Of a stretch of 27,099 nucleotides of DNA, positions 2,279 to 26,582 are shown piece after piece (positions within the stretch are counted from its first letter, which is position 1; each line of letters begins with the position of its first letter). The notes under the pieces are model-generated. The model did no database searches. It was not told the DNA's origin and worked only from the letters and a program-made list of their open reading frames with translations. This stretch comes from Baffinella frigidus (lineage: Eukaryota > Cryptophyceae > Cryptomonadales > Baffinellaceae). A program made the translations under genes and the position numbers. The DNA is taken from NCBI GenBank assembly GCA_026770585.1, contig MU646407.1, positions 477,764 to 504,862 of the forward strand, in the 5' to 3' direction.

Positions 2279-4087
2279 CTAGTCAAAGTCGGCGTCCGTG
2301 ACGAAAAAGGAGGGGGGCACGTCCTCCCCATCGTTGTCTGAGTCGTCCGACCTGCGCCAAGCCGCGTCGCGTCAACTTTCGTCAACTTTTGCCAGCTTGG
2401 CTATTCAACTTTTGCCAGTTTGTCGGCGGGCCACCTTCCGTGCCGCGCCAAGTGAACTTTTCCCGACAGTGCTGTTTTTGTTGACAGTAGGGTTCAGGGT
2501 TCAGGGTGTGGGGAGCTGAACCCGCGTCGTACTTCTTGCGGGCGTCCTTCTTCTTGGTGACCAAGCACGCTACATTCGGCATAAATGGACAGATACGAAA
2601 ATATATCAACGGACCAATCTGCAGTCCATTTAAATAAACGGACTTAAATAAACCTGTGAAGCAGATTTCAATAAATCTGCGAAGCGCACTGTGTGGTTTG
2701 GGGTACTGACCCCGCGTCGTACTTCTTGCGGGCATCCTTCTTCTTAGTGAGCAGCACGTTGTTCGCGTACGATATCTCCTCGTCTGCTTCGAACTGCTGC
2801 ACCTGCGGCGTTAGGGTTTGGGTTTTAGGTTCGGGGTTCAAGGGTCTGGGTTTGGAGTGTGGGGTTCAGGGTTTAGGGAATGGGTTTTAGGGGTCAGGGG
2901 TTAGGGGTTTGCGGGTTGCGGGTTGGGTTTCAATGTTTAGGGTTTAGGGTTGGAGGTTTGGGGTTGAGGGTTGAGGGTTTATGGTTTAGACCTGCATGCG
3001 GCGCCAGCAGACGCTGAAGAGAATGCGCGAGAGGATCCCTGGGATGAGGCTCGCGGACTATTCTTAAGTTGACATCCTCGGGCCACGATACAACCCCGTC
3101 AACTTTCGCGCGGGAAAGAGCCCGGGGGAAGCAAGCTGGCGAGCCCAAATAAACCTGAGAAGAAGCAGGAAATAGACTGGGGCAGAAACCTGCATGCGGC
3201 GCCAGCAGACGCGGAAGAGGATCAGGGACATGATCCCCGGGAAGAGCTCTTGCTGACGTCAGCAGCGCCAGGAAGAGCCTGTTATAGTGCTGACTAATAC
3301 TATTATAGTGCTGACTAATAGTAACATAGTGCTGACTAATAGCATTATAGTGCTGACAAATAGCATTATAGTGCTGACTGACAGTATTTTAGTGCTGACG
3401 AGAAGAAACCTGCATGCGGCGCCAGCAGACGCAGAAGAGGATCAGCGAGATGATCCCCGGGAACAGCCCCGTGAGCAGCGACAGGAAGAGCCACGTCCAA
3501 TACCCGCATGATCCGAAGAGGCACGCAAACCTGCTCGGAGAAAGATGTTCACAATTGTTATAAAAATATTGAAATATACCAATTGTAGGTATGTTTTAGG
3601 GTTTCCGGTCATGAAAGACAGGAAGAGCCACGTTCAATTCCCGTACGACCCAAAGAGGCACGCGAACCTGCCCAGGGTTTGGGGTTTGGAGTTGGTCTTC
3701 GAAGGAAATTTCGACAAGAAATCTGGTCGAAATGTCAGTGAATAAGATGTCTCTTTGTACCGCGCAATTCTTAATAAGTACAACGAAAATAAATGGCCCG
3801 ATCCGCAAAACCCACCGTGTGGGTTTGGTGGAGAGCAACACAGAAGCAGAAGAGGAGAAGAGGAGAGGCGTTGAGGGTTTCGGGTCTAGGGTGTGTAGGG
3901 TAACGCCGCAGTACCCATCGGTACTGATGCACGTCTGACTCTGGAAATTAGGGTTCAGGGTTTTGGGGGTAAGGGATTAGCGTGTACACTGACGGTCAGT
4001 GTTGATGCACGTCGGCTCCATGGCTTTGACCCCCCCTCCTAATCCTAAACCCTCAACCCTCCCCGCACCAGCCCCGCGGTTCACACC

Positions 4088-4131
<44 letters not shown>

Positions 4132-7100
4132 CTCTCTCTCTCTCTTTCTCTCTCTCGCGGCGACCAGCGACAAGAAACCATCTAGCAACCATCAATTTCA
4201 CAGAGAAGACGCGAGGAGTTCAGGGTTTAGGTGTTCGAGGTTTAGGGTGCAGGGTTCAGGGTGCATGGTTTTAGGGTTGAGCGTGTGCCCATCCAAATTT
4301 GTTTAGGGTTTAGCGTGTACCCGTCAGAGTTGATGCACGTGGGCTCGACGGCTTTGACGCCCCGCACCAGCCCCAAGGTGCACACCGGCGCCGCGATCAC
4401 CACGCTCCCTGCGAAGGTGACACACCGCCGTTTATCAGCACTAACAACTCCCAGGGATTCCCCCCATTATTTCCTAGGGAATTAGCACATGGGTTGAGGT
4501 TGTTGGCGTATGGTATCGCTGTGGAGGTGACACCTCGCCGTTTATAAACTAGAAACCCTACGCCCCAAACGCACCCTCAGGTTAGGGTTTAGGGTTCAGA
4601 GTCTGGGGCTCGGGGTTTGGGGTTTATTAGGGCTGAGGGCTTAGGGCTGAGGGCTTGGAGCTTAGGGCTTAGGACCCGCGGGGTTCGGTTTGAAGGCGAA
4701 GTCTGCCAGAGCCGCGTCGGAGACGTTGACCCTCCCACTTAGCTGCGAGCGAGGACCTTTTCACCTTGAATCCAAGGTGAAATTCCTGTTAGGTTCCAGG
4801 GCGATGGGTAAGATTCTAGTACAAATCGTTTGGATGGACTATCCGTGAAGCCCCCCGTGGCTGCTAGGTGCAACAATCACCCCTCAACCGAAACCCACAA
4901 CGGACCCGCGGGGTTGGCGATGAAGGCGCAGTCAGCCGGGGCCGCGACAGTGACGTTGACTTTGGGGACGAACAACTTGAAGTCGCACGGCTTGCTCGTG
5001 GAGATCGGCCGGATCGAGATCCAGTACTCCTCCTGTCCACACAAGAAGGGGGGCCTGTTTACAATCAAGATAATTTTGTATGGACCATTTGTGTAGTCAC
5101 TTGCATCGCCATTGGAACCACTGAAACCCTGGTTAGGCCGGTTACGAGGTTGGAACACCTTATCCTGGTACAAAGTTTTGCAACCTCACATGTAAATAGG
5201 CCCCTCTAGCATTCTCGAGTGGGTCCTTAGGGTTTGGGGTTCAGGGTTTGGGGATTATGGTTCAGGGCAGGAGCGGTTGTCTGGCCCGGGCAGCGTGTGT
5301 ACCAGGACGGTAGCCACACATCAGCCTGAATGCTGCTTCTTTGCAGGGGTTGCGGATCAGGATCTGTTTCGAGTTACCCGCACGAGAATGCTAGAGGGGC
5401 CTATTTAAAACGAAGATAATTTTATATGCAGCATTTGTGTAGTCACTCGCATCGCCCTTAGAGCCACTGAAGCCCCGGTTAGGCCGGTTACACATGTAAA
5501 TAGGCCCCTCTAACATTTTCGAGTGGTACAGGTCTTGCATAGAGAGGGTAATACGATTCATAATCACGGCCCCGTCATTGCAGGGGAAACAGTGGTCTGC
5601 CTCGAAACTAGAGCCGTCAAATTTGAGCGTTTTGCCTGGACCACACGAGGCCATCTATGTGAACAGATTCCTAAGTCAATTATTGGATTATTGCCCAGGA
5701 AACACGCCAAAAGTCAGCAATTGGTCACGTACATGCACGCTTTCCGTGCAGGCTTTCCCACAAAACCCTAAAACGTCCATGTATTATGTTCGCATGGGTA
5801 GCCTCGTGTGGGAGAGGGGACTGACCCCTTCCTTGCAGGGGTTGCAGATCAGGATCTGCTTTGAGAAGCGGTCGCTCCTATCCTGGAAGTTGTTGTTGTC
5901 CACATTCGGGCGACACCCCTGCCCCACCTGCACACACACAGAAAAGGTGAGAGGCCTGCATTATTACCGACACGGCCGCCACGTGTGCACCCCCACCGAG
6001 GCTGCGAATAAGCGATTGATCGGATCGCAACCAACATGGCCACCATCCTGCACACCACGCCAGATGCCTCCAGTGAATCTGCCTCGAGTCAATCTGCCTG
6101 TACACTTTCCGACACATCTCAGGAATCCCTATAGGTTTTCGGGCGACACCCCTGCCCTACCTGCTTGTAAAAAGTCGATTGGACGTGACTACTACACGGT
6201 GGTTTGCGTTTTGTAAAAAGTCGATCACCCTAGCTAGCTAGGTCCTAGGTGCCAACGCGAAAACACTCAGCCCCAAACACTCAGCCCGGCCTGCAACCCA
6301 CGCCGTACGGCTCCAGTGCATATGCCATGTATGACATATTTCAGATGACTCCAGTGAATATGCCATGCATATTTCATTTACGCGGCCTTTCAGCTCCACC
6401 GCGCGTCGATCTGAAAGACTAGCTCCAGCAAGTCCTTTCTGAATTGAGTAGCAGTAGAAAGGAAGGACACACAGGCCATGCCTGGCTATCAGGGACACGA
6501 TCTCGCGCAAAATAAAGGCTTGTTGTCACGGTCGTTTCTATTCGACCGGACAACAACCTTTTTATTTCCGATGTCCTCCACATGTGTTTGCCGCTGGCTT
6601 TCTGTATTGCAGACCCGCCCGTTTTCGGGCGACTTCTCGTACAAATCCCCGAAAAACGGGGAAATGGCAATCGAAAGTCGATGGTTTCCTTAAAGAGAAC
6701 GTTCGGCCGCGGTAAAATCACTTGTAAAGGGCATCGAGAAATAAGGCAAAGACCTGGTACAAAATTACAACCGTCGGTTGTAACCCGCCGATGGCGCTTC
6801 TCCACACAGCGGACTTCGAAGGGGTTTTGAATAACCCCCTAGTGAATAGTCCCTAGGTCCTACGGTAGGCAATACCGTACGGGCATAGGGGGGTTCCTGT
6901 GGATAAGGTAACGGAAAGTCGGTGGATTATCCACCGAAAATCCCTTCCCACTCAGAACACTACGGGGAACGTTCCTGAAGTTAATTATTGGATTGTTTCT
7001 TAGGAAACACACTCAAAGTCTGCAATTACTGGTCACGTTATCCCCGGATATCCGGGGAAGATGTGACTCTTAGCCTTTTGAGCGGGTAGCCCGCTGTTTA

Positions 7101-7771
7101 CATTCCAAATTGTCGACGCGAGCTCCACCTGGCTCTGTATCAGTCTATATGGGCTCAATTTTTGTTGGTGGGCCCGGGCTCTTTTCCGCTGCAAAGTTGA
7201 CGGGTTTGTACCGCGAACCAATGATGTCAACTTGACAATAGTCAGCCAACTGAACTGAGGCAGAGCTTAGAGGAAACAGAGAAATTGGCGGGAGCCCTAC
7301 CTGGACGTCGTACGCGGTGATGGCGTTGGTCGGTGCGGTGCACAGGAAATCCGACCCCGTCCCCGAGCACATCGCCGCGGACGGGGTGATGATGGAGGTG
7401 TACGCCTCAAGCGCCTTCCCCGAGATGGTGACCTTGAAGTAGCGGTATCGGTCGGCACCGTCCGGGCACCCAGCCTCGACCACAGACGTGGGCACTGCGC
7501 TTCGGCAGTCGTCTATGCGCGTTTGCCCCCCGCACAGGCCGGCCGACGCCAGCAGCGCCACCGCACAGAGCCACCCCCTGCCCCGGCGCCAGCCCACTGT
7601 GAATTTCCCCTCCTCTCTGGCGGAGCAGCGCCGTTCCGCACGGGGAAGCTCCGTTTCAGGTACACGCGGATGCCGCCGTGACACCCTGCTGCCCAGCCCT
7701 TGCGGTGCTGCTGCCGTTGCACCAGCAGGAATCCACCACTCCCCTGGGGCGCTGTTGCGCTCTTCATCCAT
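2279..7771 (-). CDS. Gene A: predicted type I membrane protein with cysteine-rich ectodomain, 8 exons
   Basis: Spliced gene on the minus strand. Exons in transcription order: 7771-7301, 5927-5826, 5654-5568, 5032-4906, 4408-4321, 3530-3410, 2802-2711, 2351-2279 (stop TAG 2281-2279). All introns are GT-AG, and phases match at every junction, giving 386 residues. A hydrophobic signal-like segment (WLCAVALLASAGLC, residues 67-80) is followed by an ectodomain of about 220 residues with paired cysteines (motifs ILICNPCKEG, ADHCFPCNDGA, SKPCDFKLF, EPTCINSDG). A single transmembrane helix lies at about residues 303-328 and ends in WRRM, which places the C-terminus in the cytosol. The tail is a lysine/arginine-rich stretch (TKKKDARKKYDAG) and then a very acidic end (DDSDNDGED). 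I recognise no named family; a receptor or adhesion-like role is only inference. Odd points: 65 residues precede the signal segment, so the true start may differ, and several exons have decayed copies nearby. The start at 7771 is the first in-frame ATG. Confidence 0.72.
2517..2575 (-). pseudogene. Decayed copy of gene A exon 7 end
   Basis: Minus-strand translation gives VTKKKDARKKYDAG, as in exon 7 (2802-2711), but the 5' half of the exon is absent and the donor has changed from GGGTCAG to GGTTCAG. It lies in the last intron, downstream of its source. It could act as a decoy donor region but lacks its own acceptor. Confidence 0.7.
2815..2995 (-). repeat. Telomere-like heptads in intron 6 of gene A
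   Basis: Degenerate TTTAGGG/TTCAGGG/TTGGGGT units on the plus strand, so the transcribed (sense) strand reads CCCTAAA. They start right at the acceptor side of exon 7. Similar blocks in gene A introns lie at about 3880-3980, 4203-4320, 4575-4680 and 5226-5268, all in the same orientation. Confidence 0.85.
2988..3280 (-). pseudogene. Two decayed copies of the transmembrane exon's end
   Basis: Copies at about 3280-3186 and 3060-2988 keep the exon end, reading PGIMSLILFRVCWRRMQ and PGILSRILFSVCWRRMQ, each followed by a GT. Both lack the exon's start. They lie downstream of the intact exon in the same intron. A family C repeat (3068-3126) is embedded between them and the heptads. Confidence 0.75.
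3282..3400. repeat. 21-bp tandem repeat, about 5.5 units
   Basis: The unit GTGCTGACTAATAGCATTATA is repeated with variation (actaatacta, actaatagta, actaatagca, acaaatagca, actgacagta). The array ends about 10 bases before the donor of gene A exon 6 (plus-strand 3410), so it fills the start of intron 6. No branch-site or coding role is evident. Confidence 0.85.
3410..3530 (-). CDS. Gene A exon 6: transmembrane exon
   Basis: This exon encodes residues 293-332, including the only membrane-spanning segment (YWTWLFLSLLTGLFPGIISL onward) and the WRRMQ stop-transfer end. The acceptor is GAGCAG and the donor CAG|GTTTCT. It enters with one base completing a glycine codon, matching the two bases left over by exon 5. 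It is the only one of four copies of this exon that is complete and open: 3603-3662 has a stop codon, and 3186-3280 and 2988-3060 lack the start. Confidence 0.75.
3603..3662 (-). pseudogene. Decayed copy of the transmembrane exon's start
   Basis: Minus-strand sequence corresponds to the start of exon 6 with its acceptor (FACLFGS), then a stop codon, then TWLFLSF. It lies upstream of the intact exon in transcription order, which fits the pattern of start copies upstream and end copies downstream. Confidence 0.7.
3700..3835 (-). mobile_element. Dispersed repeat family S, reverse copy
   Basis: The reverse complement reads through GGATCGGGCCATTTATTTTC, then a GGTACAAAGAGACATCTTAT segment. Diverged copies occur at about 22765-22880 and 26610-26720 on the plus strand. 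About 110-130 bases long, non-coding, inside intron 5 of gene A. Confidence 0.65.
3910..4040 (-). pseudogene. Two decayed copies of gene A exon 5 end
   Basis: Copies near 4035-3990 (VKAMEPTCINTD) and 3945-3910 (TCISTDGYC) match the end of exon 5 (VKAVEPTCINSDG at 4321-4365). The second keeps G|GTAC at the donor position. Both lie downstream of the source exon in intron 5. Confidence 0.7.
4091..4158. repeat. (CT)n microsatellite
   Basis: A nearly pure CT tract with a few interruptions lies in intron 5 of gene A. Low-complexity ORFs of alternating residues on both strands come from it. Confidence 0.95.
4672..4735 (-). pseudogene. Decayed copy of gene A exon 4 end
   Basis: The minus strand reads VNVSDAALADFAFKPNPAG, matching VNVTVAAPADCAFIANPAG at the end of exon 4, and keeps the donor context GCGG|GTCC. 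It lies downstream of exon 4 in intron 4, next to the element at 4735. Confidence 0.75.
4735..4870. mobile_element. MITE family F2 (CCACTTAGCAGC ends)
   Basis: About 136 bases with imperfect terminal inverted repeats (CCACTTAGCTGC and GTGGCTGCTAGGTG). Conserved internal parts: AAGGTGAAATTCC, TAAGATTCTAGTACAAATCG and ATCCGTGAAGCCCCC. Full copies also lie at 13566 and 18314. Here it separates exon 4 of gene A from the decayed exon 4 copy. Confidence 0.8.
5046..5221. mobile_element. MITE family F3, copy with internal insertion
   Basis: Matches the element at 5381-5525 in its core (GTGTAGTCACTTGCATCGCC, GGTTAGGCCGGTTAC) and right end (TAAATAGGCCCCTCTAGCAT). It carries about 44 extra bases with short inverted ends (GAGGTTG/CAACCTC) that the other copy lacks, which looks like a small nested insertion. 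It lies immediately upstream of gene A exon 4. Confidence 0.7.
5341..5372 (-). pseudogene. Decayed copy of gene A exon 2 end
   Basis: The minus strand reads KQILIRNPCKE, matching KQILICNPCKEG at the end of exon 2 (5826-5861). Unlike the other copies it is not in the adjacent intron: intact exon 3 lies between source and copy. Either it predates insertion of exon 3 or a larger block was duplicated. Confidence 0.65.
5381..5525. mobile_element. MITE family F3, intact copy
   Basis: About 145 bases. The terminal inverted repeats at 5381-5407 and 5497-5525 share CTAGAGGGGCCTATTTA and its complement. It is inserted in intron 3 of gene A. Confidence 0.8.
6137..6165 (-). pseudogene. Decayed copy of gene A exon 2 start
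   Basis: The plus-strand text TTCGGGCGACACCCCTGCCC followed by ACCTGC is almost identical to 5906-5931, the start of exon 2 with its acceptor. It lies upstream of exon 2 in transcription order. A weaker match (TTTTCGGGCGAC) occurs near 6622. Confidence 0.75.
7160..7235 (-). repeat. Dispersed repeat family C
   Basis: The reverse complement contains GTTGACATCATTGG, then CCCGTCAACTTTGCAGCGG and AAAGAGCCCGGGCCCACC. Related copies lie at 3068-3126 and 12101-12165. AAGTTGA and TCAACTT form a short inverted pair inside the element. Confidence 0.65.
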
Positions 7772-8205
7772 GCCGGAGCCCCGCAAATCCTCACACCGCG
7801 CGGAAGACCTCGCCGGGGGACCACCAAAGAAGAAGGCTTCCTGCGCTGATCAAGTAACCTGCAGGGAACGTTCGGGTATTGTGAGAGACTGGTGGAAGGG
7901 GGGGTGGGGGGAAGGACAAGGTTCAGCCCAAAGTCCCAAGATTTCGAGATTTGACCTTTGACCTTGTTGTGAGCAATCCTGCCCCGTTCTTGGAGCCGTT
8001 ACCCCGTTCTTGGAGCTAAGTGTCCACTTTTGGCCGAGATGGCCATGGGCTCTTCAAACCAACCTGAAAAAATTGACTTTTAAATACACCCCTACAACTG
8101 TCTGACGTTTTTTCAACGACCAACGGATCCTCCATCTCCCAGAGCGTCGGGCCTTCTGGATCACTCTGGTTGTGTGGAAGGTTGGCTGGTCCGTGCAGCG
8201 CCGCC
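7772..8205. promoter_or_regulatory. Divergent promoter region between genes A and B
   Basis: Only 434 bases separate the first ATG of gene A (minus) from that of gene B (plus). The region must hold both promoters and 5' leaders. It contains a G-rich tract (7893-7913) and a short direct repeat (CCCCGTTCTTGGAGC at about 7981 and 8002). I see no convincing TATA box. No telomere-like heptads are present, unlike the introns on either side. Confidence 0.6.
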
Positions 8206-11200
8206 ATGGTTGCCATGTTATCGCAGCATGGCAGCGTGCTACGCCTGGGGCTGGCGGTGTTGTGTCTCGCAGCAGGATCGGCGGGGCGCCACGTATCTCC
8301 GTCGGTGTCGCTCGCCCGCATCTCTGATCCTCGGGCTGAGGCCCAGAGATGCGGCGCAAGCTGCCTCCCGGTCGCAGCGAACCTTGCGCTGCGCGGCGGG
8401 CATGAGAGCACGGACGTGCAGGTGGGTTGTTTGTCGGCCTTTTTTTCCTGCTTCGGCCGCAAGGCGCCGGAGCCACCCCCGCCAGTGGTTGAGACTACTG
8501 AATTCACCACCGTCGTGCACTTCGCGACTGCCGATGGCGAGGGGAGCGAGCTGAGGCCGTTCATCAGCGGGTCGTGCGATGGGCTGGGCGACTGGGACTT
8601 ATCCAAGGCCGTCGCCCTCCAGGCGGGGGCTGGATTTGCGCGCTGGGAAGGCACCTTCCGGTGAGCCTCTTTGGAGCGGAAAAGAGCCCAAACAGACTGC
8701 GACAGACCTGAAATTCCTGCTGTAAAAGCACACATCGCCTCGTTCGACCCCTTGTTTGTTCTGGAGGTCGCGGGAATCCGACGACACGTGGTACACATCG
8801 AGGGTCTCGACAAAGAGGATTTACTCCCTCTCTCAGGGCTGGTGGCATGTCGTGTACAAATGATGCATCTTCATGGACGAGGCCATGCAATTTAACCGTT
8901 TTAACCGTTTTTTGCTATATTCGGGTGGATTTTGTGTTATTTTACAGCTTAGTCGAAGCTAAGATAGCAAAATCTGAGAACATTCACCCTTATTAAGATA
9001 GCGTACACGGCGGTTTCAATTGCATGGAAGCGGGAACTCATCTGGGCCATCTCGCTCCCTACCTCCAAATGAAACATCAATTAACTTGAGAGGCTTATTT
9101 CCCCGGCGTGCCTCCCCGTGCAGGTTCCCGAAGGTGGATGCCACGTTCTTCTTCAAGTATGTCCTGCTCCCGGTCACTGAAGAGGGCCTCCTTGACCTGG
9201 CGCGCCTCGACGAGGTCCGTTCCTTTGTCGAAACAGATGCATGGTTGTAGCCTCGCTGCATCTCACATGGAAACAGATTTAATTGCTCCACGAAATCGAT
9301 TGACCCTGCACCCTACAACCTAAACCCTGAACCCTCAAACCTAAACCCTAAACTCTAAACCCTTGACCCTGAACCCTTGATCCTAAATCCGAGTCCGTAA
9401 CCGACACCTTTAATAAAACTCATTTCGAAACAGATTTAAGTAAAGCCACCTTTTTGCTATCTTATGGGTGGGTTTTGCGCTGTGGTACAGCTATGCCGAG
9501 GCTAAGATAACAAATTTCACCCTCAAGATAGCACACGAGGTGATATTACATCAATCTGCCTCCGCAGTGTGGGCTCCCCACAAGCCAAGGGCCCTGCGCT
9601 CGTGCGATTCCCAAATGCTTTGAATAAACTTTTTTTTTTCTGGTTGGTGGCTATGCAGGCAACCCTAAACCCTAAATCCTAAACCTTGAAACCTGAACCC
9701 TAAACCCTAAACCCTAAAACGCTCATCCCCAAACCCGAAACCCTCAACGCAGGCGGCTTGGGAGGACGGGCATAACAGGGAGCTGCACGTGACAGAATCG
9801 GGACAGGTCTCTCCACCCACACCCCTCACCCTCAACCCTACACCCTACAACCTACTGCCTGAACCTTACACGCTCAACCCTAAATTTGAGGTTAAACCAG
9901 GGCACTCCGCCACCCTTCCAGCCCTGAGAAGCGAGGCGTTATGCCATAAGTTGACATTTTTCGGTCGACTTTGGTGATCGGGATGTTTTCATCGTTTGGG
10001 TTTGGCGGATCAGGACAAGGGTTGGGTACTGAAGAGGACACTCGCGTCTTTTTTTCCATTTTGATCGTTTAACCCCGGATTTGGACGGGGAGGGGAGGGT
10101 ATGGAAGGGCGGTGGAGTGACCGGGTTAAGGCTTTAGGGTTGAGCCCACCGGCCTGGAGAAGTGAAGCGAACCACCCTGCACCCCACACGCCGACTCACA
10201 AGTTGACGACGCTCGTACTCAACTGACAACGTTTCCAAAAGTTGGCAACGCCACGGCAGGTGCCGCTGGGGGGCACGGTGCCCCAAGCCTCAAACCCCTG
10301 AAACACTAACCCCTGAAATATCACCCCCCGAAACCCCTGACCCTATCCCCTGAGATCCCAAACCTCACCCCCCTGAAACACTAACCCCTGAGATCCCGCA
10401 CCCCGAAACCCCTGAGCCCCTGAACCCCACACCCCGAAATAGGTGGCGCTTGGGGGCACGGCGCATGGTCGCAAATCGCCTTTTCCAACCCCTTGCTTTG
10501 TTCTGGAGGTCGCGTGAATCCGGCGACGCGTGGTACAAAAAAGGGGTCTGAGCGAAGAGGATTTGCCCCCCCCCTCTGACGGCACACCCCACACAGGTGG
10601 CGCTGGGGGGCACGGCGCTACCGCACCACATGCGCCACCCGATCAACGTCTATCCTACACCTTAATCCCTAACCCTTAATCCCCTACATAACACCTAAAA
10701 CCTAAAACCCCAAAACCCCTGAAACGCCAAACCCCTGATCCCCCAAGCCCCTACAGCCTAAAAAATAAAAATAAAAAATAAGACATGAACAATAAACATA
10801 AAACATAACCTGAAACTTACCACAAAACCTAACGTAACCCGACACACAAACAGGTGGAGCTGGGGGGCACGGCGCTGCCGCACCACATGCGCCATCCGCT
10901 CAACGTGCACCCGCCTTGCGTCGATGTACGCCCCTCAACCCTATTATACCGTGTACACTATGGATGCACACCCCTCAACCCTCAACCCTGGACCCTGGAT
11001 CCTGGACCCTAGGCCCTAGACCCTGGACCCTAGGCTCAACGTCCATCCGCTCTGTGTGGTTGTACGCCCCTACATCATACACCCTATACCCTGAACCCTG
11101 GACCCTGAACCTTAGGCTCAACGTGCACCACAACCCTAAAGATTTAACCCTATATATGTACGCCCCTGTATCTTGAACCCTGACGTGTGTAGATGGACGT

Positions 11201-14200
11201 CCCCGAACCCTAAACCCCAAACCCTAAACCCTAATCCCTAAACCCTGCTGTTAACCATAAACCATCAACCACAACCCCGCACCTTATACTGTGAACCCTA
11301 CACCCTGCCCTCGCTCAACGTGCGTCGCGGGATCCGACCATGAGGGCGGTTGGCAGGGTGCGGTGCATGCGCCTAACCCCCAAACCCGGGGTGGTCGGCC
11401 CCGGTTTTGGTTGGAGAGGTGGGGGGCAGAGGTGGCGTGAGGGGAGATGGTGTGTGAGAGAGTGAGAGAGTGAGGGAGTGAGAGCGTGAGAGCGTGAGAG
11501 CGTGCGAGAGTGAGAGAGTGTGGTGCATGGATCGTGTAGTTCGCCTCGCCATACCCACAACGTGCCAGTCCCGCTGGGCGGGGCTGCCTCTGGCTACCCG
11601 TGAAGTAGAAGGCGTGGGCTTTCACCGAAATGAAATGTGCGTGGCTGCGGCCAACCATAACTTGTGGCCATGGCTGCATAACCTGTGTGGGTCCATCACC
11701 TGTATGGGTCCATGATCTCTCCGAACATGCCTGCGGGTTCCCACGTGCGTCGCGGGTCTGTTTCGGGTTTAGGGTAACCCCTAACCCACCCACGGGGTGC
11801 GTGTGCCCTCCTCGGGTGTAGGGCTTCGGGGTGTAGGGTCTACCCTAAGGTACGCCCTCAACCCTGCGCAGGAGGTGACAGGGTTTAGGGTCCTAAACCC
11901 TAAACCCCACGCAGGAGACGGCCCCGGCGGCGCCTCCCCTGCCTCCCCAGGGGCCTCTTCGTAGGTTCCTGAGGTTCATCCGGAGGGGTCCCTGGGGTCT
12001 CATGCCTTCTGCCAAGGATTGCCTGGGGGGGGGGGTCCGGGCTGCCGCGTGAGCCCTGCCGTGTGCTGTAGGATGGGGGCGCGGGGTGGGGGGCGTTTCT
12101 AAAGTTGATGTCCCGGGTGTGCGGTGCACACCCGTCAACTTTGGAGCGAAAAAGGACCCGGTCTCACCAAATTGGTGAGGCAAAATCGACTGAGACAGAG
12201 CTAGAATGCGCGTGCGCAGGTTGTGAGCCTCTCCTCTTAAGGGTTGACGCCCTGTTTCCGGCGTCCACCAAATTCCGGGCACGGGTGTGTGTGCGGCGTA
12301 TCAAGGCGGGGAAACGTTCTGGAGGAACTGCCAATGTGTTTCCCCCGAGGATGTCCCCCGAGGATGTGTTTTTGAATACCTCCCCGATTCGGGTCGGTGG
12401 GGAGGGGGGGCTGGTGTGGTCACTGCAAAAGCGCCACACGTATAGGAGGTGGGAAGAGGGGGGGTTCGATGGGGAGGCGCTCACGTGCTGTAGGCCCGTC
12501 TGAGACGGGCCTACAGCACGCCCGAGTCGGTTTACCGGCGCTGGGAGAGCTCCCCGCGTGTAGGGGNNNNNNNNNNNNNNNNNNNNNNNNNNNNNNNNNN
12601 NNNNNNNNNNNNNNNNNNNNNNNNNNNNNNNNNNNNNNNNNNNNNNNNNNNNNNNNNNNNNNNNNNNNNNNNNNNNNNNNNNNNNNNNNNNNNNNNNNNN
12701 NNNNNNNNNNNNNNNNNNNNNNNNNNNNNNNNNNNNNNNNNNNNNNNNNNNNNNNNNNNNNNNNNNNNNNNNNNNNNNNNNNNNNNNNNNNNNNNNNNNN
12801 NNNNNNNNNNNNNNNNNNNNNNNNNNNNNNNNNNNNNNNNNNNNNNNNNNNNNNNNNNNNNNNNNNNNNNNNNNNNGGGGGGGGGGGGGGGGGGGGGGGG
12901 CGCGGTGTTGTAGTAATTGGTACACGGATTGTAGACGAACCCGTGGTGTTGCTGGACCCCGCCCCCTCGTGGATTTTGTGTCGTGGATTTTGTTGAGGGT
13001 TGCACCCAGGGTTTTTTTAGGGTTGGACCAAGGTTGAAGGTTACACCTGTGCCCGTGTCGCTCCCTGCCGGGCCATCCCGAACCTACCAAAGCCCCTTCG
13101 TTTACGGTCTACCCTAAACTATTTCATCCCCTAAACCCTAAACCATGAACCTTAAACCCAAAACCCTAAACCCTCAACCACAACCCAAAACCCAAAACCC
13201 TACTCCCCAAACCCCAAGCCCCAGACCCCAAACCCAAAACCCCCAACCCTAGACACCAAACTCCAAACCCCAAACCCCAAACCCCAAACCCCACACCCTC
13301 AACAAGGTGACGTTCACGGTGCACCACCGGCGGCGCGCGGACGAAGAGCTTGTCTACCTCACAGGTACCCTTCGCAGCGACGGTTTAGGGTTTATGGTTT
13401 AGGGTTTAGGGGCAAGATCCTGGTGTTGTCGGGAAGTGCGGATCGCGCGGAACAGGATGGGTCCGTAGAACATCAGAAGGAACCTGCTTTCGGGTGTCGC
13501 ATTCAGTGTTTGTCGCATTCAGTGTTTGGACAAGTGCGCGTGGTTCAGTCGGGAGGCTGTCTGGGCCACCTAGCAGCGACCGAGGACCTCTTCGCCTTGA
13601 ATTCAAGGTGAAATTCCGGTTAGGTCTCAGGGAAATGGATAAGATTCTAGTAGAAAATGGTTTAGATGGACTGTATCCGTGAAGCCCCCGTTGGCTGCTA
13701 AGTGGATCCTAAGGATGGAGGACCTAATCCCGGCATAAACCTAATTCCGGCATTCCGTATCACCCTACCGTATTGCGTACCGTAGCACCGGAATGCCGTA
13801 GCCGGGTAGATGTCCTACCTCACTCTCAGTCGCAGCGGTTTCCACGTCGGTTGGTGAAAACAACGTTTACTGAAAACTGTGAAAGAGCACTCCGTCACCC
13901 AAAGGTGGCAGGATGGTAGCAGCATCGTCACAACGTGTGTTACGTGTGTTTTGGTTTTCGCAGTCCACCACGAGGAGCTTGTCTTCCTCACAGGTACAAC
14001 GCTTTTCGCATCGGTTGCCGAATGTCAGAAAACGTTGAAAGAGTGCCAAAAGGTGGCAGTTTAGCAGCAGCAGCGTCACAACTTTTGGCATGGTTTGAAA
14101 CGACACACGGCGTGAAAGTGAGGTGCGTGTGGTCCTCACAGGTATCAGACCTTTCCGGCCCTTGAGGGTTTGCCTCAACCCTAAACGCTAGGGCTTAGTG

Positions 14201-18313: not shown

Positions 18314-18452
18314 CCACTTAGCAGCGGCCGAGTTCCTTTTCCCTCGGATATCCGGGGAAAATGAGGTTAGAATCCAATGCAAATGGATAAGATGCTAGTA
18401 CAAATCGTTTGGATGGACTGTATCCGTGAAGCCCCCGGTGGCTGCTAAATGG
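18314..18452. mobile_element. MITE family F2, full copy
   Basis: Ends CCACTTAGCAGCGGCC and GGTGGCTGCTAAATGG. Internal GCTAGTACAAATCGTTTGGA and CTGTATCCGTGAAGCCCCC match the copies at 4735 and 13566. Confidence 0.85.
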
Positions 18453-18845: not shown

Positions 18846-18930
18846 TACAGGGTACCTCGCTTATAAGAAACCGCACCCCCCTAGGACCCTGCAGTAGGCC
18901 CATGCCTCTAGGGCCCTATAGTGGTCCACC
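18846..18930. mobile_element. MITE family F1, right end missing
   Basis: The left terminal repeat (TACAGGGTACCTCGCTTATA then AGAAACCGC) and CCTAGG core are present, but the right terminal repeat is absent after GGTCCACCCCTGCAGG. Just upstream, CATACAGGGGTCATACAGGG suggests earlier rearrangement of such ends. Confidence 0.7.
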
Positions 18931-20226: not shown

Positions 20227-23200
20227 ATGGCCGGCGACGCATCCGCTCCGCCAGCGATCGAGCGGGTGCTGGAGGCAGCTGCGGCTGGCGCGCAGGCGTC
20301 GTGCTACCAGGTGCTCGGCCTCGCGGCGAGTGCTGCAGCTGGCGATGTCCGACGCGCCTACCTTTCTCTGGCGCTCCAGGTGAGAAAGTTTGATTTAAGT
20401 TTCTGCCTTTTCAACGCACTCAGTCATGAGAAAGAAGAATTTAGGAAATATGTCCAGCTGCAGGGGGGGGGGCAAGTTGAGCGGTGTGTCCAGCCGTGGG
20501 ACAAAGTGAAAGCTTCCTGCCGTGGGACAAAGGGGAAGCTTCAGAGTTGGATCATGCATCCGGATCTCTCGCGAATCCCTGTCAGGGACATGGGTCCCTG
20601 TTTCTCCTCCCGTGACCTCATCCGGGTTGTCCCTGAGGCACGACTGCTGATTTAAGCCAGACAGGGGTTTTTTGAAGACGGCGACCAAACCGGGAAGGGC
20701 GTTCCGATGGTGCCAGAGAATCCTTCGCCAACTCTCCCGTAGGTAGACTAGATTGCGGAAGTTATATAGACCAGAATGTAAGTTTGATAGACTGATGAAC
20801 GCACCCCCCTAGGTCCTGCTCAACCAAATCCTGCATAGCTGTGCATACATGGCGGCCGTGTCGGCATTAACCAACGATATCTCTCAGACCTTCATTAATA
20901 CCAGAGCACCCAGGGAGAGACCGTCATTCATACCAGGGATAAATCATCATGAATACCTTGGGTGCAGGTTCACCCGGACAAGCACAACGGAGACGAGCGT
21001 GCCGCGCAGGCGTTCGTAGCGGTGTCGCTCCTGACCCCCCCCCACCAACCCTCACGGGCGGACCAAACCGACTGTTTTCGATTTCCCAATCCCTACAGAA
21101 AATGGCTCCACCATATACGAATTCGCTTGTGGTGGAGCCATTTCCCATGGGAACTGTGATATCAAAAATCGTCGTTTTGGTCAGCCCGTGGGGGTTGGTT
21201 CGTTGCGGTGTCACCCCTGCACCAACCCTCACGCTGGAGGCAAATCGACGAAATCATGGAGCCATTTTCCCCTTGGAGGCCGTCGGATTCCGACATCGGT
21301 TATTTTTACGACTCTCAAATCTTGATCACAGCAGGGGTTTTGTTGTTTCAAAACTGTTTTGCAGAAAAGTCTAAAATCGTCGATTTGCCTCCCCTGTGAG
21401 GGTTAGAGGCTGATCCCCCCAGAGGCCTACTGTAGGGTTCGGGGGGCGGCGGCGGTTTCTTATGAGCGAGGTACCCCTGTACATGAATTCGCGAACGCTT
21501 GTAGGCACACAGAGATTATTGGCGGCATGCAGTAATGAGAAAATATTTATGCACAACCTCAGTGTCTCGCCCAGCACTCTTCGTCAAAAATATTGGCACC
21601 TTTCGACACGACCACGTACTAAGACACCCTTGGATCTCGATGAGAGAACACACCGTGACTAAATCCACGTTGCCGAAACCCACGATTTCGTCCTGTTTCG
21701 GTGTTTGAAGCGTTCGCGGCCCTGTTCGACCCTCCTGTCGGGGTGCTATCGGGTGCTTCTTTAACCCCTAACCCCTAACCCCCAACCCCTAACCCCTAAC
21801 CCCTAACCCCTAATAACGCGTCATGCCGCTTTCAGGTATTCGAAGCGTTCGAGACTCTCTCCGACCCTGCGGCGCGCGCGCGCCACGACATCCTCCTACA
21901 GCAGACACTCCACGCGCAGACCCTACACACTGGTCCTCCAGGGGGGGGGGCGCGCGGAGCAAGGAGCGAAGCGGGACGCGGCGCTGGGAGGGGGCAGGCT
22001 GCCGCTAGCGCTGACTCGAGGGGTTTCCGCGATGAGGGCTCTGATGCGAGGGGTTTCGGGTGTGATTCTGGGGGTGTCGGCCCGAAGGCGGAGGGTGCTG
22101 GGAGGCCCGGGGCGCAGCCCGCGTTTCCAAACGCGTTTTCGTCGCGCGGTGCTGCGCCGAGAGCACCGGGAGGTGCGTGTGCCGGACAGCCCCACTCGAG
22201 GCTGCAAGAGGGAGTGTTTTAAATGTGGGGTTGTTAAATCTAGTACCAGTCACAGGCAGGCTTGGTGACGTAGCTGGGGGAATTCCCCCAGGTACGTGAC
22301 TAAACGTCCCTATTTGTGTGAAATGTACTACACATATTTTTTTTTTACTCGTAAAAAAACCTGTTTTAAAATAGTCACATTTCTAGCCTCGAGTGGCCCT
22401 CTAGCCCTCTGAAGTGAACGGTTTTCACATTTTACTCAACGATTTTCGCCGAGAGCGTCGACAGGTGCGCAGCCGCCCACACACGCTAACAAGTCGGTTG
22501 TAATTTGGGCGTGTGGTACAAAGTTACAATGCCCTGGTACGAAACGTTTTTAGCCTCCGGCTCCAGAGAGCGCCGACAAGTGCGTTTGCGGGAAAGCCCT
22601 CGAGCTCTCTCACATGAACAATTGTCACGGTGCTACGCCGAGACCCTGACCCCGTCCCACATCCTGGGGGTCGGAGGGTCAGCAATTTGGAACCTTCACA
22701 CTGAACCCTAATCCCGAAACTATAAACCGTAGCCGGCTGGTGCGTTTGCCGGCGAGCCCACCACACAGGGGGGCTTCGCAGATCGGTCCATTTATGATCT
22801 TGATTGCATGGTACTAATGAAGAATTGCTCGGTACAAAGACATCTTATAAACCGACGTTCCAACCAGTTTTTTGAGCCCTTCCACGCGCAGGCAGCACGA
22901 AGGGGGGTGTACCAAGCGGGGGTGGGTGGTGTCCTGGATTTGTACTGTAGTCGCCGGAATCCGGCAACCCCCAGAACAAATCAAGGGGATTAAAACAGAC
23001 GATTTGCTCCCACTCTGAGGGCTGTTGAGAACCCTTGCCCGTGCAGGGGGTGCTTCAAGCGGGGGTGGATGGTGTCCTGGGAGGACTCCTACTCCACAGC
23101 CGGGTGGGTCATCGGCGCAGCCCCGGCATTCAGGGGGTGCCAAGTCGGGTGGCGCGGCGGCGGAAGGAGCATGGAGGAAGGGGGGGAGCTTCGATGATCG

Positions 23201-23450
23201 CCTTAGAGAGGTCTGAACCCTCCACTAGAGAGAGGAGGAAGGGGGGGGGGCTTCGATGAATGTCTGCGAGAGGTCTTTGCAGGACCGATTGCTAACTCCT
23301 TGCAAGTTTACGTTCGCCTACCGATAATTTTGCGGTTGGTCGGCTTACACAAAATACACCGTGTGGCAGGCGGCCGCAAGGTGGAAGACGGAGTTTGCAG
23401 CGACTCACCGCGTGGAGCACTCCGCTGCTCTGGTCTCGCGCCCCATTTAA
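20227..23450 (+). CDS. Gene C: J-domain (DnaJ/Hsp40-type) co-chaperone, 5 exons
   Basis: Exons: 20227-20379, 20968-21015, 21836-22172, 23047-23210, 23370-23450 (stop TAA). Phases agree and the product is 260 residues. The J domain covers about residues 26-88: CYQVLGLAASAAAGDVRRAY (helices I-II), the catalytic HPD at 53-55 (VHPDKHNGDE, exon 2) and AFETLSDPAARARHD (helix III, exon 3). J domains stimulate Hsp70 ATPase through the HPD loop. The rest is a glycine/alanine/serine-rich, probably disordered region, then FDDRLRE and a short C-terminal exon (RWKTEFAATHRVEH). No zinc-finger or peptide-binding domain of DnaJA/B type is visible, so it is a class III (DnaJC-like) protein; the client is unknown. 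There is no signal peptide. Exons 1-3 are firm. If the donor at 22173 is not used, the frame ends at TAA 22222 (179 residues plus a short tail); downstream copies of that donor favour splicing. Confidence 0.75.
20490..20545 (+). repeat. Direct repeat in intron 1 of gene C
   Basis: CCGTGGGACAAAGTGAAAGC and CCGTGGGACAAAGGGGAAGC are adjacent direct copies of about 27 bases. The rest of this intron (20545-20960) shows no exon or heptads. Confidence 0.7.
21061..21182. mobile_element. Inverted-repeat element in intron 2 of gene C
   Basis: Exact arms AAATGGCTCCACC (21100-21112) and GGTGGAGCCATTT (21131-21143), with looser outer arms ACCAAACCGAC and GTCGTTTTGGT. The element begins shortly after exon 2. 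Confidence 0.75.
21192..21236 (+). pseudogene. Copy of gene C exon 2 donor region
   Basis: GGTTCGTTGCGGTGTCACCC then CTGCACCAACCCTCACG repeats the exon 2 end and intron start (CGTTCGTAGCGGTGTCGCTC ... CACCAACCCTCACG at 21011-21058). It lies downstream of the source. Confidence 0.7.
21239..21389. mobile_element. MITE with GGCAAATCGACGA ends
   Basis: Exact 13-base terminal inverted repeats GGCAAATCGACGA (21239-21251) and TCGTCGATTTGCC (21377-21389), about 151 bases, non-coding. ATGGAGCCATTTTCC inside resembles the neighbouring element at 21061. Confidence 0.75.
21414..21481. mobile_element. MITE family F1, right half
   Basis: The CCTACTGTAGG core and intact right terminal repeat (GGTTTCTTATGAGCGAGGTA then CCCCTGTA) are present; the left terminal repeat is missing. 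Confidence 0.8.
21688..21730 (+). pseudogene. Copy of gene C exon 3 start
   Basis: Reads VFEAFAALFDPP, against VFEAFETLSDPA in exon 3. It lies 140 bases upstream of the exon, and its acceptor has become TTTCG|G instead of TTCAG|G. Confidence 0.8.
21762..21815 (+). repeat. Octamer block (ACCCCTAA)n
   Basis: About seven units of ACCCCTAA, an eight-base variant of the heptad, lie directly upstream of the exon 3 acceptor of gene C, C-rich on the sense strand. Confidence 0.9.
22447..22765 (+). pseudogene. Three copies of gene C exon 3 donor region
   Basis: The exon 3 end GCCGAGAGCACCGGGAG|GTG then CGTGTGCCGGACAGCCCC (22155) recurs as GCCGAGAGCGTCGACAG|GTG (22450), CCAGAGAGCGCCGACAAGTG then CGTTTGCGGGAAAGCCC (22562) and GTAGCCGGCTG|GTGCGTTTG then CCGGCGAGCCC (22728). 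All lie downstream of the exon. Confidence 0.75.
22770..22880 (+). mobile_element. Dispersed repeat family S
   Basis: CTTCGCAGATCGGTCCATTT, GGTACAAAGACATCTTATAA and ACCGACGTTCCAACCAG align with 26618-26705 and with the reverse copy near 3700-3835. Located in intron 3 of gene C. Confidence 0.7.
22885..23035 (+). repeat. Copy of gene C exon 4 start, then a reversed family R copy
   Basis: GCGCAG...GTGTACCAAGCGGGGGTGGG then TGGTGTCCTGG (22885-22936) repeats the acceptor and start of exon 4 (GTGCAGGGGGTGCTTCAAGC then GGGGGTGGATGGTGTCCTGG). Next, about 22937-23030 is the reverse complement of family R (GTCGCCGGAATCCGGCAACC then CCCAGAACAAATCAAGGGG). Confidence 0.75.
23225..23275 (+). pseudogene. 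Copy of gene C exon 4 end
   Basis: GGGGGGCTTCGATGAATGTC then TGCGAGAG|GTCTTTG repeats the exon 4 end (GGGGGAGCTTCGATGATCGC then CTTAGAGAG|GTCTGA). Codons read GFDECLRE against SFDDRLRE. Confidence 0.8.
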
Positions 23451-23617
23451 TTTAACTGTTTCAATTATTTTAATTAATTCACCCGCCCTTCGGAGTGAAG
23501 TATTCTAATCTTTGGGGTCTGGCGAATTTGTGCGGGGGATTTTCTATTATCGGTAAACCCTGGTGCAAATCGGGGATTGGCGATACGATGAGATGATTCA
23601 CTTCTGTCGAGAGCCCC

Positions 23618-26582
23618 ATGTCGAAGCTTGCCCAGGTACTAACCGTGCTCGGTTTGGGGAGCCATCCCCAACACTAACCTCTAATCCCTAAACCCTAAAC
23701 CAAAACCCAAAACCCAAAACCCAAAACCCAAAACCCAAAATTCAAAACCCAAAACTCTGAACCCAACCCCCAAAACCCAAAACCCCAAACCCCAAACCCA
23801 AAACCCAAAACCCAAAACCCAAAACCCAAAACCCAAAACTCAACACCCAAAACCCAAAACCCAAAACCCAAAAACCCAAACACCGAAAACTCAAAACCAA
23901 AAACCAAAAAACCAAAAATCCAAAACCCCAAACCCCTATAACCCAAACCCCAAACCCCAAACCCCAAACTCCAACATCCAAGCCCCAAAACTCAAAAAAG
24001 AAAAACTGAAATCCTCATAGACCATAAACCATAAACCATGAATCATAAACCATCAACCATTCACCCCAAACCCTCAACAATAAACCAGGTCGGAGAGCTA
24101 TCGCGCCGCAACGTTCCTGACTCGGCTATTGGCGAGATGCTGCGATCCGCCTCAATCGGTATCACTAAACCCTAAACCCTAAACCCTGAACCCTAAACCC
24201 TAAACCCTGAACCCTGAACCCTAAACCCTCAACCCTAAACCCTAAACCCTAAACCCTAAACCCTAAACTCTAAACTCTAAACCCTAAACCCTAAACCTGA
24301 AACCCTATTCCGGCGTAGTTACGGTGATCCTCAGGGCGCAGTATCGTACCCTAAACCCTGAACCCTAAACCTGGACCTTTAAACCCTGAACCCCAAACCC
24401 CAAACCCTGAACCCTGAACCCTTACCCCTCAACCCTAAACCCTGAAAGCAATCCTCAACCCTGACTCTTAACTCTGAACCATGAACCATAAACCATAAAC
24501 TCTGAACTCTGAACTCTGAACTCTGAATTCTGAACTGAACTAACCCCGACTGCAGGCGGCACGCACCCCGCTACCCAAGACCTCGCCGCATTGGAAGCAG
24601 GTACCCCAAACCTCAAACCCTAAACCTCCAATCCCAACCCCAACCCTAAACCACAATCCCCCAAACCCCAAACCCCAAACCCCAAACCCCAAACCCCAAA
24701 CCCCAAACCCCAAACTCCAATCCCCAATCCCCATCCCCCAAACCCGCCTAAACCCTAAACCCCAACTCCTCGCCACCAACCAACCCCGAAACCTCAAACC
24801 AGGCGACCGCATGACCATGCTCTCTCTCGACCCGCCGAAAGATCTCTCGAGAGAGCCCCCGCGAGGCGGGAGGGGGCGGAAGGGCGGGGCGGATGAGCTG
24901 CCAACTCAGGGGTATTCACGCCCCCCCCTCCCCCTGTAAGATTGGTGGCGGACTATTCAGAGATGTGTTCGTGGTACTGATCTTTGAGGTTTTGAGAGCT
25001 CCTATAGTGACGGCGTTCAGGGTTGGTTTCGGGATTGGGCTTCAGGGTTCAGAGTTCAGGATTCAGGGTTGAGGGTTGAGAAGTTGGGGTTTAGGGGTTC
25101 GGGATTCTTTGTTCGCGGGAAGCCTCGTAACCTGCTCGCTGGTCAAAAAATCACGACGTCGAATCTCAACCGTCACCATGCCCCAACCTCTAACCCCTCA
25201 GCCCTGAAGCAGGTGGACCGTTTCGAAGGGGGCGGTGTTCGTCTGGGTCCCGCGCCTCGCTCCCCGCATCCTGTACCCCCCCCCTACACCCTAACACGAG
25301 GAAAAGGGAAGGGTTCACCCTAAAACGAGGAAGTGGGAAGTGGTACACCCGATCCGAGCAAGAGTCTACGACCGATCTGGGAGCACCTGGTTGAGGGTTT
25401 AGGTCTTTCTACGATTCTGAGCGTGCTGATTTATTGCGCACGATTCTGAGCATGCTAGTTCACGCATCCTGTACCACCCGATCCGAGCAAAACAAACGTC
25501 TTTCTAAGATGTGTACCACAGATCGGCCACTTTTGCAGACTAGTCCAGAAATCCTTCGCGAAATTGACTTTTGGACACAGCCGGATTCGGATGGAAAGGG
25601 CCGGTGTTCGGCTGGATGCCGCACCCCGCGCCACGCATCCTGTGCCTCCTCCGTCCGTCCCCCTTCTTCTGTGTTGCCCCCGGACCCGACAAAAAGTGAT
25701 CCATCTTGTAGGAAGAAAAGACGCGGCGGTGGTGTGATGCATCCGCGTGAAACCACTATACCCTAAAACCCTAAGCCCTAAGACCTAAAACCTGAAACCT
25801 AAAACCTAAACCATAAACCCTAAATCCCAAACCCCAAACCCTAAACCCTAGACCCTAAACCCTAAACCCTAAACCCTAAACCATCAACCATAACTCCGGA
25901 AACAGGCGTTGGAGAGCAGCAGGTGGCTGCGGGGCGGTTGTAGCTCCTGATTTATCTCCTTTGAGGTTGTCGCTCCTGCGTAATCTCCTACGAAGAGGCG
26001 CGGTGGGTTCCTGATCAATCGCAGGAAGAAAACACGCGGCCTTATTGTGATGCACGTGAAAATCCTAAACCCTAAGACCTGAGCCCTAATCTCTCATCCC
26101 TGAACCCCAAACCCTACAGCCTACACCCTAAACCCTACACCCTAACTCCCGAAACAGGCATTGGCGAGCAGCAGGGGGGGGGGGGTCTGCGGAACCAGAC
26201 GGAGGCATCGTGGATTCCCCGCCCTGAAACCCTCAACCCTCAACCCTAAACCCGAAACCCGAAACCCTAAACCCTAAACCCTACACCCTCCACCCTGAAA
26301 CCCTCCACCCTAAACCCTCCACCCTCAAACCCTGAACCCAGCACCCCTATATCCTGAAACCCTTCACCCTCCACCCTCAACCCTCAACCCTCAACCCTAG
26401 ACCCCAAACCCTAAACCCTAAACCCTAACCCCCACACCCCACAGGAGAATCACACAATGCCAAACGTTGATGACACACTCCCTAAAGTTGATGGTCCGAG
26501 GCAGGTCCTGGGTGGTTCGGTGCGCGTCGCGAAGCTCAAAGGGGAGGGTGATGCGTGCTTTTCCGTCGCCTCTCCCCAGTAA
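23618..26582 (+). CDS. Gene D: unrecognised protein, 7 exons
   Basis: Exons: 23618-23635 (18 bases, MSKLAQ), 24089-24158, 24556-24600, 24803-24911, 25213-25272, 26158-26209, 26445-26582 (stop TAA). Phases agree and the product is 163 residues. I recognise no domain. Visible features: an N-terminal helix-like part (DSAIGEMLRSASIG), a central basic glycine/arginine-rich loop (REPPRGGRGRKGG), a hydrophobic strand (GWTVSKGAVFVWVP) and a C-terminal part ending VRVAKLKGEGDACFSVASPQ. There is no signal peptide or membrane segment. It lies only 168 bases after the stop of gene C, same strand. The start is chosen because ATG plus 15 bases sits in front of a clean CAG|GTACTA donor. Exons 2-5 and 7 are reasonably supported; exon 6 is glycine-rich and weaker. 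The last stop overlaps a possible donor (CCCA|GTAAGA), so the protein may continue past 26577. Confidence 0.55.
23670..24070 (+). repeat. CCCAAAA-type heptad block in intron 1 of gene D
   Basis: From about 23700 to 23990 the unit is almost purely CCCAAAA, then CCCCAAA and CCATAAA variants follow. The long aromatic/glycine-rich minus-strand ORFs over this block are its translation and not genes. Confidence 0.95.
24160..24540 (+). repeat. CCCTAAA/CCCTGAA heptad block in intron 2 of gene D
   Basis: This is the purest telomere-like tract in the window (24165-24300), then CCCTGAA and TCTGAAC variants. A 45-base island at 24303-24347 resembles the exon 2 end (GATCC, GCGCAGTATCG) and may be another decayed boundary copy. 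Confidence 0.9.
24600..24800 (+). repeat. CCCCAAA-type heptad block in intron 3 of gene D
   Basis: Eight or more consecutive CCCCAAA units at about 24657-24715, flanked by CCCTAAA variants, fill the 202-base intron almost completely. Confidence 0.9.
25015..25110 (-). repeat. Reversed heptad block in intron 4 of gene D
   Basis: GGGTTCAGAGTTCAGGATTC and GGGTTGAGGGTTGAG are G-rich on the sense strand, opposite to every other long block in this gene. A shorter one follows at about 25390-25405. Confidence 0.8.
25440..25660 (+). pseudogene. Copies of gene D exon 5
   Basis: A short copy of the end (CACGCATCCT|GTACCACC, 25462) and a nearly full copy (25580-25633, reading GWKGPVFGWMPHPAPRI against GWTVSKGAVFVWVPRLAPRI) lie downstream of exon 5, each with GT at the donor position. 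The full copy lacks an AG acceptor directly before it. Confidence 0.75.
25755..25935 (+). repeat. Heptads and a copy of gene D exon 6 start
   Basis: CCCTAAA heptads (25758-25890) end in GGAAACAG|GCGTTGGAGAG then CAGCAGG (25901-25922), a copy of the exon 6 acceptor and start (CGAAACAG|GCATTGGCGAG then CAGCAGG at 26150). GGAAGAAAAGACGCGGCGG (25710) and GGAAGAAAACACGCGGCC (26024) form another direct pair. Confidence 0.75.
26224..26440 (+). repeat. Telomere-like heptads in intron 6 of gene D
   Basis: CCCTAAA, CCCTCAA and CCCTCCA units fill this intron up to the CCACAG acceptor of exon 7, C-rich on the sense strand. A shorter block lies at 26065-26150 in front of exon 6. Confidence 0.9.

Follow-up and report, generated by a model that had tools for sequence, protein, structure and literature searches.

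Partial copies of exon edges in the introns of a Baffinella frigidus locus most likely derive from many small local duplications

Why do introns in the Arctic cryptophyte Baffinella frigidus carry partial copies of the exons beside them, and why do copies of exon starts lie upstream of the exon and copies of exon ends downstream? Transposons and drift are commonly given as the reasons why introns lengthen. Here, we address these questions for a stretch of 27,099 nucleotides (nt) (contig MU646407.1, positions 477,764 to 504,862 of the forward strand, GenBank assembly GCA_026770585.1), referred to as the window, in which a sequence-only reading had listed such copies in four genes (A to D) and had attributed them to repeated duplication of boundary segments. 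The GC content of the window is 54.9%; the published Baffinella CCMP2293 assembly, made from Illumina reads with AllPaths-LG, comprises 534.5 Mb at 53.9% GC (PMC9756366). The partial edge copies are most likely the leftovers of many small local duplications, which would have lengthened the introns.

To characterize the copies, we compared 26 hand-modelled exons, each with 12-nt flanks, with 22 introns and three 3' flanks of the window. At a threshold of at least 28 bits, 30 local direct matches (in the adjoining intron or 3' flank) were found, with no local inverted matches and no matches in non-adjacent introns on either strand, although the non-local search space was 14 times larger (5.8e7 versus 4.2e6). 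This imbalance rules out chance similarity as the source of the copies. Lowering the threshold to 26 bits gave 33 local direct matches, 1 local inverted match, and 3 + 0 non-local matches. All start copies lay upstream of their exon and all end copies downstream, and 29 of the 30 matches came within 3 nt of the proper edge; the remaining one (A4 positions 20 to 49) adjoined an edge copy. If a single match were placed randomly for each edge, all 20 would touch the proper edge only with a probability of ~4e-15. At 28 bits, 6 of the 22 acceptor edges had copies, as did 14 of the 25 exon ends tested, two of which (A7 and B10) are gene 3' ends and not donors, and at least one copy was present in 16 of 22 introns (6/6 in gene A, 7/9 in gene B, 3/4 in gene C, and 0/3 in gene D). 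Two further copied edges in gene D (D5 end and D6 start) came from later local alignment. The 28-bit comparison left out the C5 end and the upstream flanks of first exons and used a provisional end for gene D exon 4. Individual alignments for A2 upstream, A3, and C2, which matched the original DNA, were dropped, and several others landed on a neighbouring copy derived from the exon in question.

The gene models behind this comparison were built by hand, and all splice sites used in them are GT-AG. Translation of the gene A model gives exactly NCBI record P0003 from B. frigidus, plus one residue and the stop. The gene B product contains two CBM20 starch-binding domains (Pfam CBM_20, E 8.4e-29), and its model is co-linear with a relative's protein, P0002 (344 residues; 56% identity over 299 aligned positions). 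Its first 201 residues (through exon 3) are those of the B. frigidus record P0001, which departs from both the model and P0002 after B4. From P0002, which ends soon after, we take B10 as the probable last exon of gene B, with a candidate 3' end. Gene C encodes a DnaJ-domain protein (Pfam DnaJ, E 5.5e-17), for which a protein search gave five matches, with alignments covering just 24 to 28% of the query and no same-species record among them. The later exons of gene C and all of gene D were read by hand only, and the gene D sequence tried gave no Pfam match.

Most positions in the sequence-only list correspond to clear copies, with some exceptions. The copies at 21198, 11116, 11312, and 3934 and those of the C3 end (22447-22751) fall below 28 bits, and one near 14132 was recognized on visual inspection alone. 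Start copies listed at 3603 for gene A "exon 6" and at 15404 for gene B "exon 10" are real (3671-3617 and 15395-15466), but in our models the exons are A5 and B8. The copy at 2233, listed among donor copies, instead corresponds to the last 25 nt of the gene A coding sequence (CDS) with its stop codon (2257-2233), and the supposed exon end with GT donor at 17601 is a copy (at 17603) of the gene B 3' end beside a miniature inverted-repeat transposable element (MITE), where a donor is not established.

Table 1. Genes, exon-edge copies, and fillers in the window (A5, exon 5 of gene A, and so on)
Feature	Position	Strand	Match or remark
Gene A	2279..7771	-	7 exons: 7771-7301, 5927-5826, 5032-4906, 4408-4321, 3530-3410, 2802-2711, 2351-2279
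Gene B	8206..17520	+	B1-B5: 8206-8660, 9124-9214, 9753-9806, 10854-10925, 13307-13364; B6-B10: 14315-14447, 14833-14917, 15669-15763, 16384-16460, 17326 to ~17478 or 17520
Gene C	20227..23450	+	20227-20379, 20968-21021, 21836-22172, 23047-23210, 23370-23450
Gene D	23618..26582	+	hand model, partly resolved
A7 CDS end copy (last 25 nt with stop codon)	2233..2257	-	24/25 identical; no splice site
A6 end + donor copy	2509..2569	-	76.1 bits, 89%
A5 end + donor copy 2	2990..3044	-	73.4 bits, 89%
A5 end + donor copy 1	3184..3279	-	113 bits
Minisatellite between A5 donor and copy 1	3282..3399	-	period ~21 (by eye); pair 3282-3336/3345-3399
A5 start + acceptor copy (lies 5' of A5)	3617..3671	-	68.9 bits, 87%
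A4 copy, marginal	3934		22 bits (<28)
A4 end + donor copy	3977..4035	-	58.1 bits
A3 end + donor copy	4672..4730	-	58.1 bits
MITE-like element 3, between A3 donor and copy	4735..4866		85% to 13566-13700
A2 end copy	5336..5373	-	51.8 bits; GT lost; absent from the sequence-only list
A2 start + acceptor copy	6138..6164	-	45.5 bits
B4 start + acceptor copy 1	10257..10281	+	32.8 bits; spliced in as exon (VPLGGT) in P0001
B4 start + acceptor copy 2	10437..10464	+	38.3 bits
B4 start + acceptor copy 3	10590..10649	+	86.9 bits, 92%; in frame, exon in P0001
B4 end + donor copy	11034..11071	+	38.3 bits
Later B4 copies, marginal	11116 and 11312		26.5 and 22.9 bits
B5 end + donor copy	13970..13997	+	42.8 bits
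Second B5 copy	near 14132		by eye only
B6 end + donor copy	14577..14656	+	86.9 bits; homology runs ~77 nt into intron
B7 end + donor copy, after heptad run	15059..15117	+	58.1 bits
B8 start copy	15395..15466	+	81.5 bits; AG lost
Four B8 end + donor copies (15850/15968/16090/16235)	15850..16278	+	49-60 bits each; units ~120-145 nt, heptads between
MITE-like element 3 piece, truncated, inverted	16471..16563		abuts first B9 copy; 86% to 13612-13705
Three B9 end + donor copies	16564-16620, 16671-16724, 16842-16881	+	58-82 bits
MITE-like element 1	17479-17600		followed by gene B 3'-end copy at 17603
MITE-like element 1 together with the B10 / gene B 3'-end copy at 17603	17479..17640	+	60.8 bits, 95%; 38-bp direct repeats flanking MITE-like element 1
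Marginal copy	21198		27.4 bits
C3 start copy	21696..21733	+	31.9 bits; AG lost
C3 end copies, marginal	22447-22751		22-26 bits
C4 start copy	22903..22937	+	46.4 bits
C4 end + donor copy	23234..23276	+	43.7 bits
D5 end + donor copy	25594..25652	+	local alignment score 58
D6 start + acceptor copy	25887..25926	+	local alignment score 55, 35/40
Other family 1 MITE-like copies	1221-1341, 1577-1694, 15493-15613, part at 18846
Other family 3 MITE-like copies (~135 bp)	13566-13705, 18314-18452

The copies contain ~22 to 83 nt of exon and usually at most ~18 nt of intron. They are 75 to 97% identical to their exon, and up to four copies of one edge occur, joined without N. These properties bear on whether the assembler, working from Illumina reads with AllPaths-LG, joined diverged alleles or repeats. 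The short-read draft nature of the assembly (PMC9756366) and the presence of a 310-base N run in the window speak for such an artefact; the divergence of the copies, their number per edge, and their N-free joins speak against it, as does the absence of a second, diverged gene A or B from the protein-search matches (8000 candidates sharing most words scored). We consider an assembly artefact very improbable.

Telomere-like heptads are one class of filler between edges and copies. Strict CCCTAAA units number 52 in the sense and 8 in the antisense orientation relative to the gene in the resolved introns, for genes on both strands. None occur in exons or on either strand of 5,136 intergenic bases, and within the window they are confined to introns and gene tails; the looser motif CCCNNAA occurs nine times between genes. 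CCCTAAA contains neither GT nor AG, and its complement, TTTAGGG, resembles an acceptor; selection against false splice sites could thus be the cause of the heptad orientation. The heptads themselves may be of telomeric origin.

MITE-like sequences form a second class of filler. Family 1 elements have long inverted repeats reading GGTACCTCGCTCATAAGAAACCGC, and the core pattern of this family had no exact match in viral contigs. Both MITE-like families recur within the window, and in this one window no intron was seen to consist of one single element, as in introners.

The spacers give hints as to how the copies arose. In 7 of 22 successive steps (A2, B4, B5, B6, B8 twice, and B9), the similarity of the spacer to the stretch that follows the copy exceeded that of every mismatched pair, which suggests that edge and intron were duplicated as units; the A2 match is due to a repeated MITE, and in the B8 array two of the four spacers were homologous to the sequence after the copy. 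A general rule that copies end sharply at the splice site was rejected, as homology at B6 and B8 continues into the intron, and the apparent sharp ends thus partly reflect fast heptad turnover. For B9, B10, and A5, in contrast to the steps with duplicated units that include intron, a filler sits exactly between edge and copy and abuts the copy: a MITE piece runs to 16563 and the copy starts at 16564, a MITE runs to 17600 with the copy at 17603, and the minisatellite runs to 3282 with the copy at 3279. Two modes may therefore operate, plain tandem duplication and insertion accompanied by duplication.

In a more restricted version of the duplication explanation, each copy is a long target-site duplication of one insertion, in which a staggered break at an exon edge was filled in on both sides with telomere-like repeats or a MITE fragment between. 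The fillers within ~10 nt of both edge and copy at B9, B10, and A5 fit this account, as do the 15 of 22 steps at which spacer homology did not exceed all mismatched pairs, and staggered-break duplications have been described for horse interstitial telomeric repeats (PMC7215372) and Daphnia introns (PMC4202315). The duplicated units at B4, B5, B6, B8, and B9 include intron, however, and the copied exon segments (~22 to 83 nt) are much longer than the 4- to 12-bp exon repeats given for Daphnia (PMC4202315). We regard an origin of every copy in this way as somewhat less likely than not.

We consider it probable that small local duplications across the coding/noncoding border recurred, likely through break repair, and made spare edges in introns with fillers between them. 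Duplications of tens to a few hundred base pairs spanning this border would have occurred many times in these genes, presumably during repair of DNA breaks. Each would place an additional exon edge inside the intron, and the space separating the two edges would capture heptads, part of a MITE, or a minisatellite, or such filler would grow there. The edge joined to the exon body would remain in use while the spare intronic edge decayed, duplications inside exons would be purged by selection, and introns that were formerly shorter would have been lengthened. As in tandem duplication across exon-intron boundaries, the copies are direct, lie nearby, and span exon as well as splice site. In intron gain by AGGT-type exonic duplication, the intron is made by the duplication and the copied end of exon n lies at the acceptor of exon n+1; here, end copies with 28 bits or more sit inside introns, away from the next acceptor.

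A duplication spanning an edge puts the spare edge into the intron as long as the body-joined edge stays in use, which P0003 and P0002 indicate, and duplications within exons would be purged. The polarity of the copies may thus be largely a matter of geometry plus selection and should need no directed intron growth. The sequence-only reading had taken polarity as evidence of growth from both ends, a step that loses its force if geometry and selection give the same result. Its proposal that the outermost intact edge is kept in use is not supported by the protein records: P0003 equals the model with the innermost, body-joined edges, and P0002 likewise contains body-joined edges only, with no repeated edge in its aligned part. 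Its claim that boundary segments were duplicated repeatedly, heptads and MITEs lying between the copies, is supported by the matches, the spacer homology, and the fillers.

One copy lies past the gene A stop codon, and the gene B 3' end is likewise copied. Since these ends (the latter probably a gene end) have copies, the spliceosome seems dispensable for copying. A splicing-dependent mechanism is thought unlikely on the same grounds.

Several observations weigh against recurrent duplication as the full account. Six of the 22 introns (B1|B2, B2|B3, C1|C2, D1|D2, D2|D3, and D3|D4) have no copy at 28 bits, and in separate tests no copies were found upstream of the CDS starts in genes A to C (D1 excluded) or downstream of the C5 end. 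Duplications within introns alone are far rarer than edge-spanning ones among the repeat pairs described below, differences between copies and exons concentrate at third codon positions, as if the copies had once been translated, and one protein record (P0001) includes two copies as coding sequence.

The scarcity of intron-only duplications emerged from a self-comparison of the heptad-masked window, in which direct pairs within 1.5 kb and of at least 30 bits were sorted by hand. The 51 direct pairs comprised 25 edge/copy pairs, 12 copy/copy pairs, 6 involving mobile elements or dispersed repeats, 2 simple repeats, 3 other intronic or unresolved pairs, and 3 intergenic pairs. There were also 23 near inverted pairs, and no exon edge was paired with an intronic copy among the 40 listed of 50 inverted pairs. 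Short ancestral introns would explain why intron-only duplications are rare, and this is a candidate reading. Because copy/copy pairs are still detectable, decay alone probably does not account for the scarcity, although the argument loses weight if the copies were under constraint in the past, and the heptad stretches were masked. The three intergenic direct repeat pairs (204-322, 415-636, and 670-884) indicate that local duplication extends beyond genes.

The codon-phase signal was examined in several ways. With one copy per edge, differences at the three codon positions number 21, 22, and 63 (17 edges, C4 end included), a third-position excess with P = 0.004 against an expectation of 46% and P = 0.03 against 50%; over all 25 copies, where several copies of one exon are counted repeatedly, the counts are 28, 31, and 88. 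The ratio of nonsynonymous to synonymous substitution rates (dN/dS) between copy and exon is 0.18 (bootstrap 0.12 to 0.26; 24 copies, 16 edges), or 0.22 with another choice of copies (22 copies, 16 edges), while the wrong frames give 1.98 and 1.61. The codon tests omit the A2 end, A7, B10, C2, the C3 end, the C4 end (other than in the 17-edge tally), D5, D6, the A4 copy at 3934, and the weak later B4 and B5 copies, and the 22-copy test additionally lacks two B4 start copies (10260 and 10443). Of A5 copy 1, just the segment following a 7-nt insertion entered the codon-position tally and the dN/dS, private-change, and simulation tests. In the four groups with several copies (12 copies), 21 copy-private changes were synonymous and 17 were not, with shared changes counted twice; B8 copies 1 and 2 together with B9 copy 2 contributed 12 of the 21.

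Older copies that preserve earlier states of the exon would by themselves produce part of this signal. For a neutral copy beside a constrained exon evolving at equal rates, the observed dN/dS was reached in 0 of 400 simulations; at exon/copy rate ratios of 1.5, 2, 3, and 5, it was reached in 0%, 4%, 21%, and 93% of runs. Two readings fit these values: a period in which the copies were translated, or faster change at the synonymous sites of the exons. We considered gene conversion from the copies as a means of raising the exon synonymous rate.

These data therefore bear directly on the alternative that the copies are, or long were, translated in frame as alternative exons, edges, or mini-exons: spare coding edges held within oriented heptad arrays unable to create false splice sites. 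Beyond the low dN/dS and its absence from equal-rate simulations, record P0001 continues after its 201 shared residues with VPLGGT and VALGGTALPHHMRHPIN, which are encoded by two B4 copies in the intron (10260 and 10597) and spliced in frame, and then with B4. Use of copies as regular exons had been named beforehand as grounds for abandoning the duplication proposal; P0003 and P0002 show no such use, whereas P0001 includes these two, possibly through a wrong gene model. Several copies also carry stops or frameshifts or have lost AG or GT, and the rate ratios of 3 and 5 reproduce the observed dN/dS in the share of runs given above. We regard translation of the copies, past or present, as unlikely. 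If the codon-phase signal held true genome-wide, it would surprise specialists.

On the reading that we prefer, recurrent local duplication, the debris is legible in 13 of the 15 introns of genes A and B, so that event rate, size, and filler become directly measurable. The Baffinella genome (534.5 Mb) is far larger than that of Guillardia theta (87.2 Mb) (PMC9756366), and the duplication process would be a testable contributor to genome growth.

Related events are known from other systems. In a potato RdRp gene, a tandem duplication of a 3' intron part and a 5' exon part crosses an intron-exon border (PMC4974935), as do the duplications proposed here; the potato case is a single event that created a new intron, whereas Baffinella shows ~20 edges on both exon sides, up to four copies, fillers, and existing splice sites kept. 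New Daphnia introns are attributed to staggered double-strand breaks, and successive rounds of break repair have been proposed to drive introns toward greater length (PMC4202315). There, too, exon ends are directly repeated in introns, but the repeats are 4 to 12 bp, compared with ~22 to 83 nt of exon in Baffinella, accompanied by telomere-like heptads and MITE pieces. In mammals, interstitial telomeric repeats, likewise telomere-like repeats at non-terminal sites, were inserted at breaks, sometimes with target duplication, and their intronic share in humans fits random placement (PMC7215372), whereas the Baffinella heptads are missing from the 5,136 intergenic bases and are mostly gene-oriented. 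Direct repeats of 4 to 30 bp near intron borders pair both borders of one intron (PMC11782384); the Baffinella repeats also lie at borders but copy one exon edge into the intron. In introners, one element family forms many introns, some families having 3- to 9-bp target-site duplications (PMC9860276). Neither exon-edge copies nor heptad introns were described for cryptophytes among the literature matches listed (e.g., 25 of 467). The kinds of events seen here are thus known singly, from potato, Daphnia, and interstitial telomeric repeats; what is new, in this one window, is their density, their two-sided polarity, and the oriented heptads.

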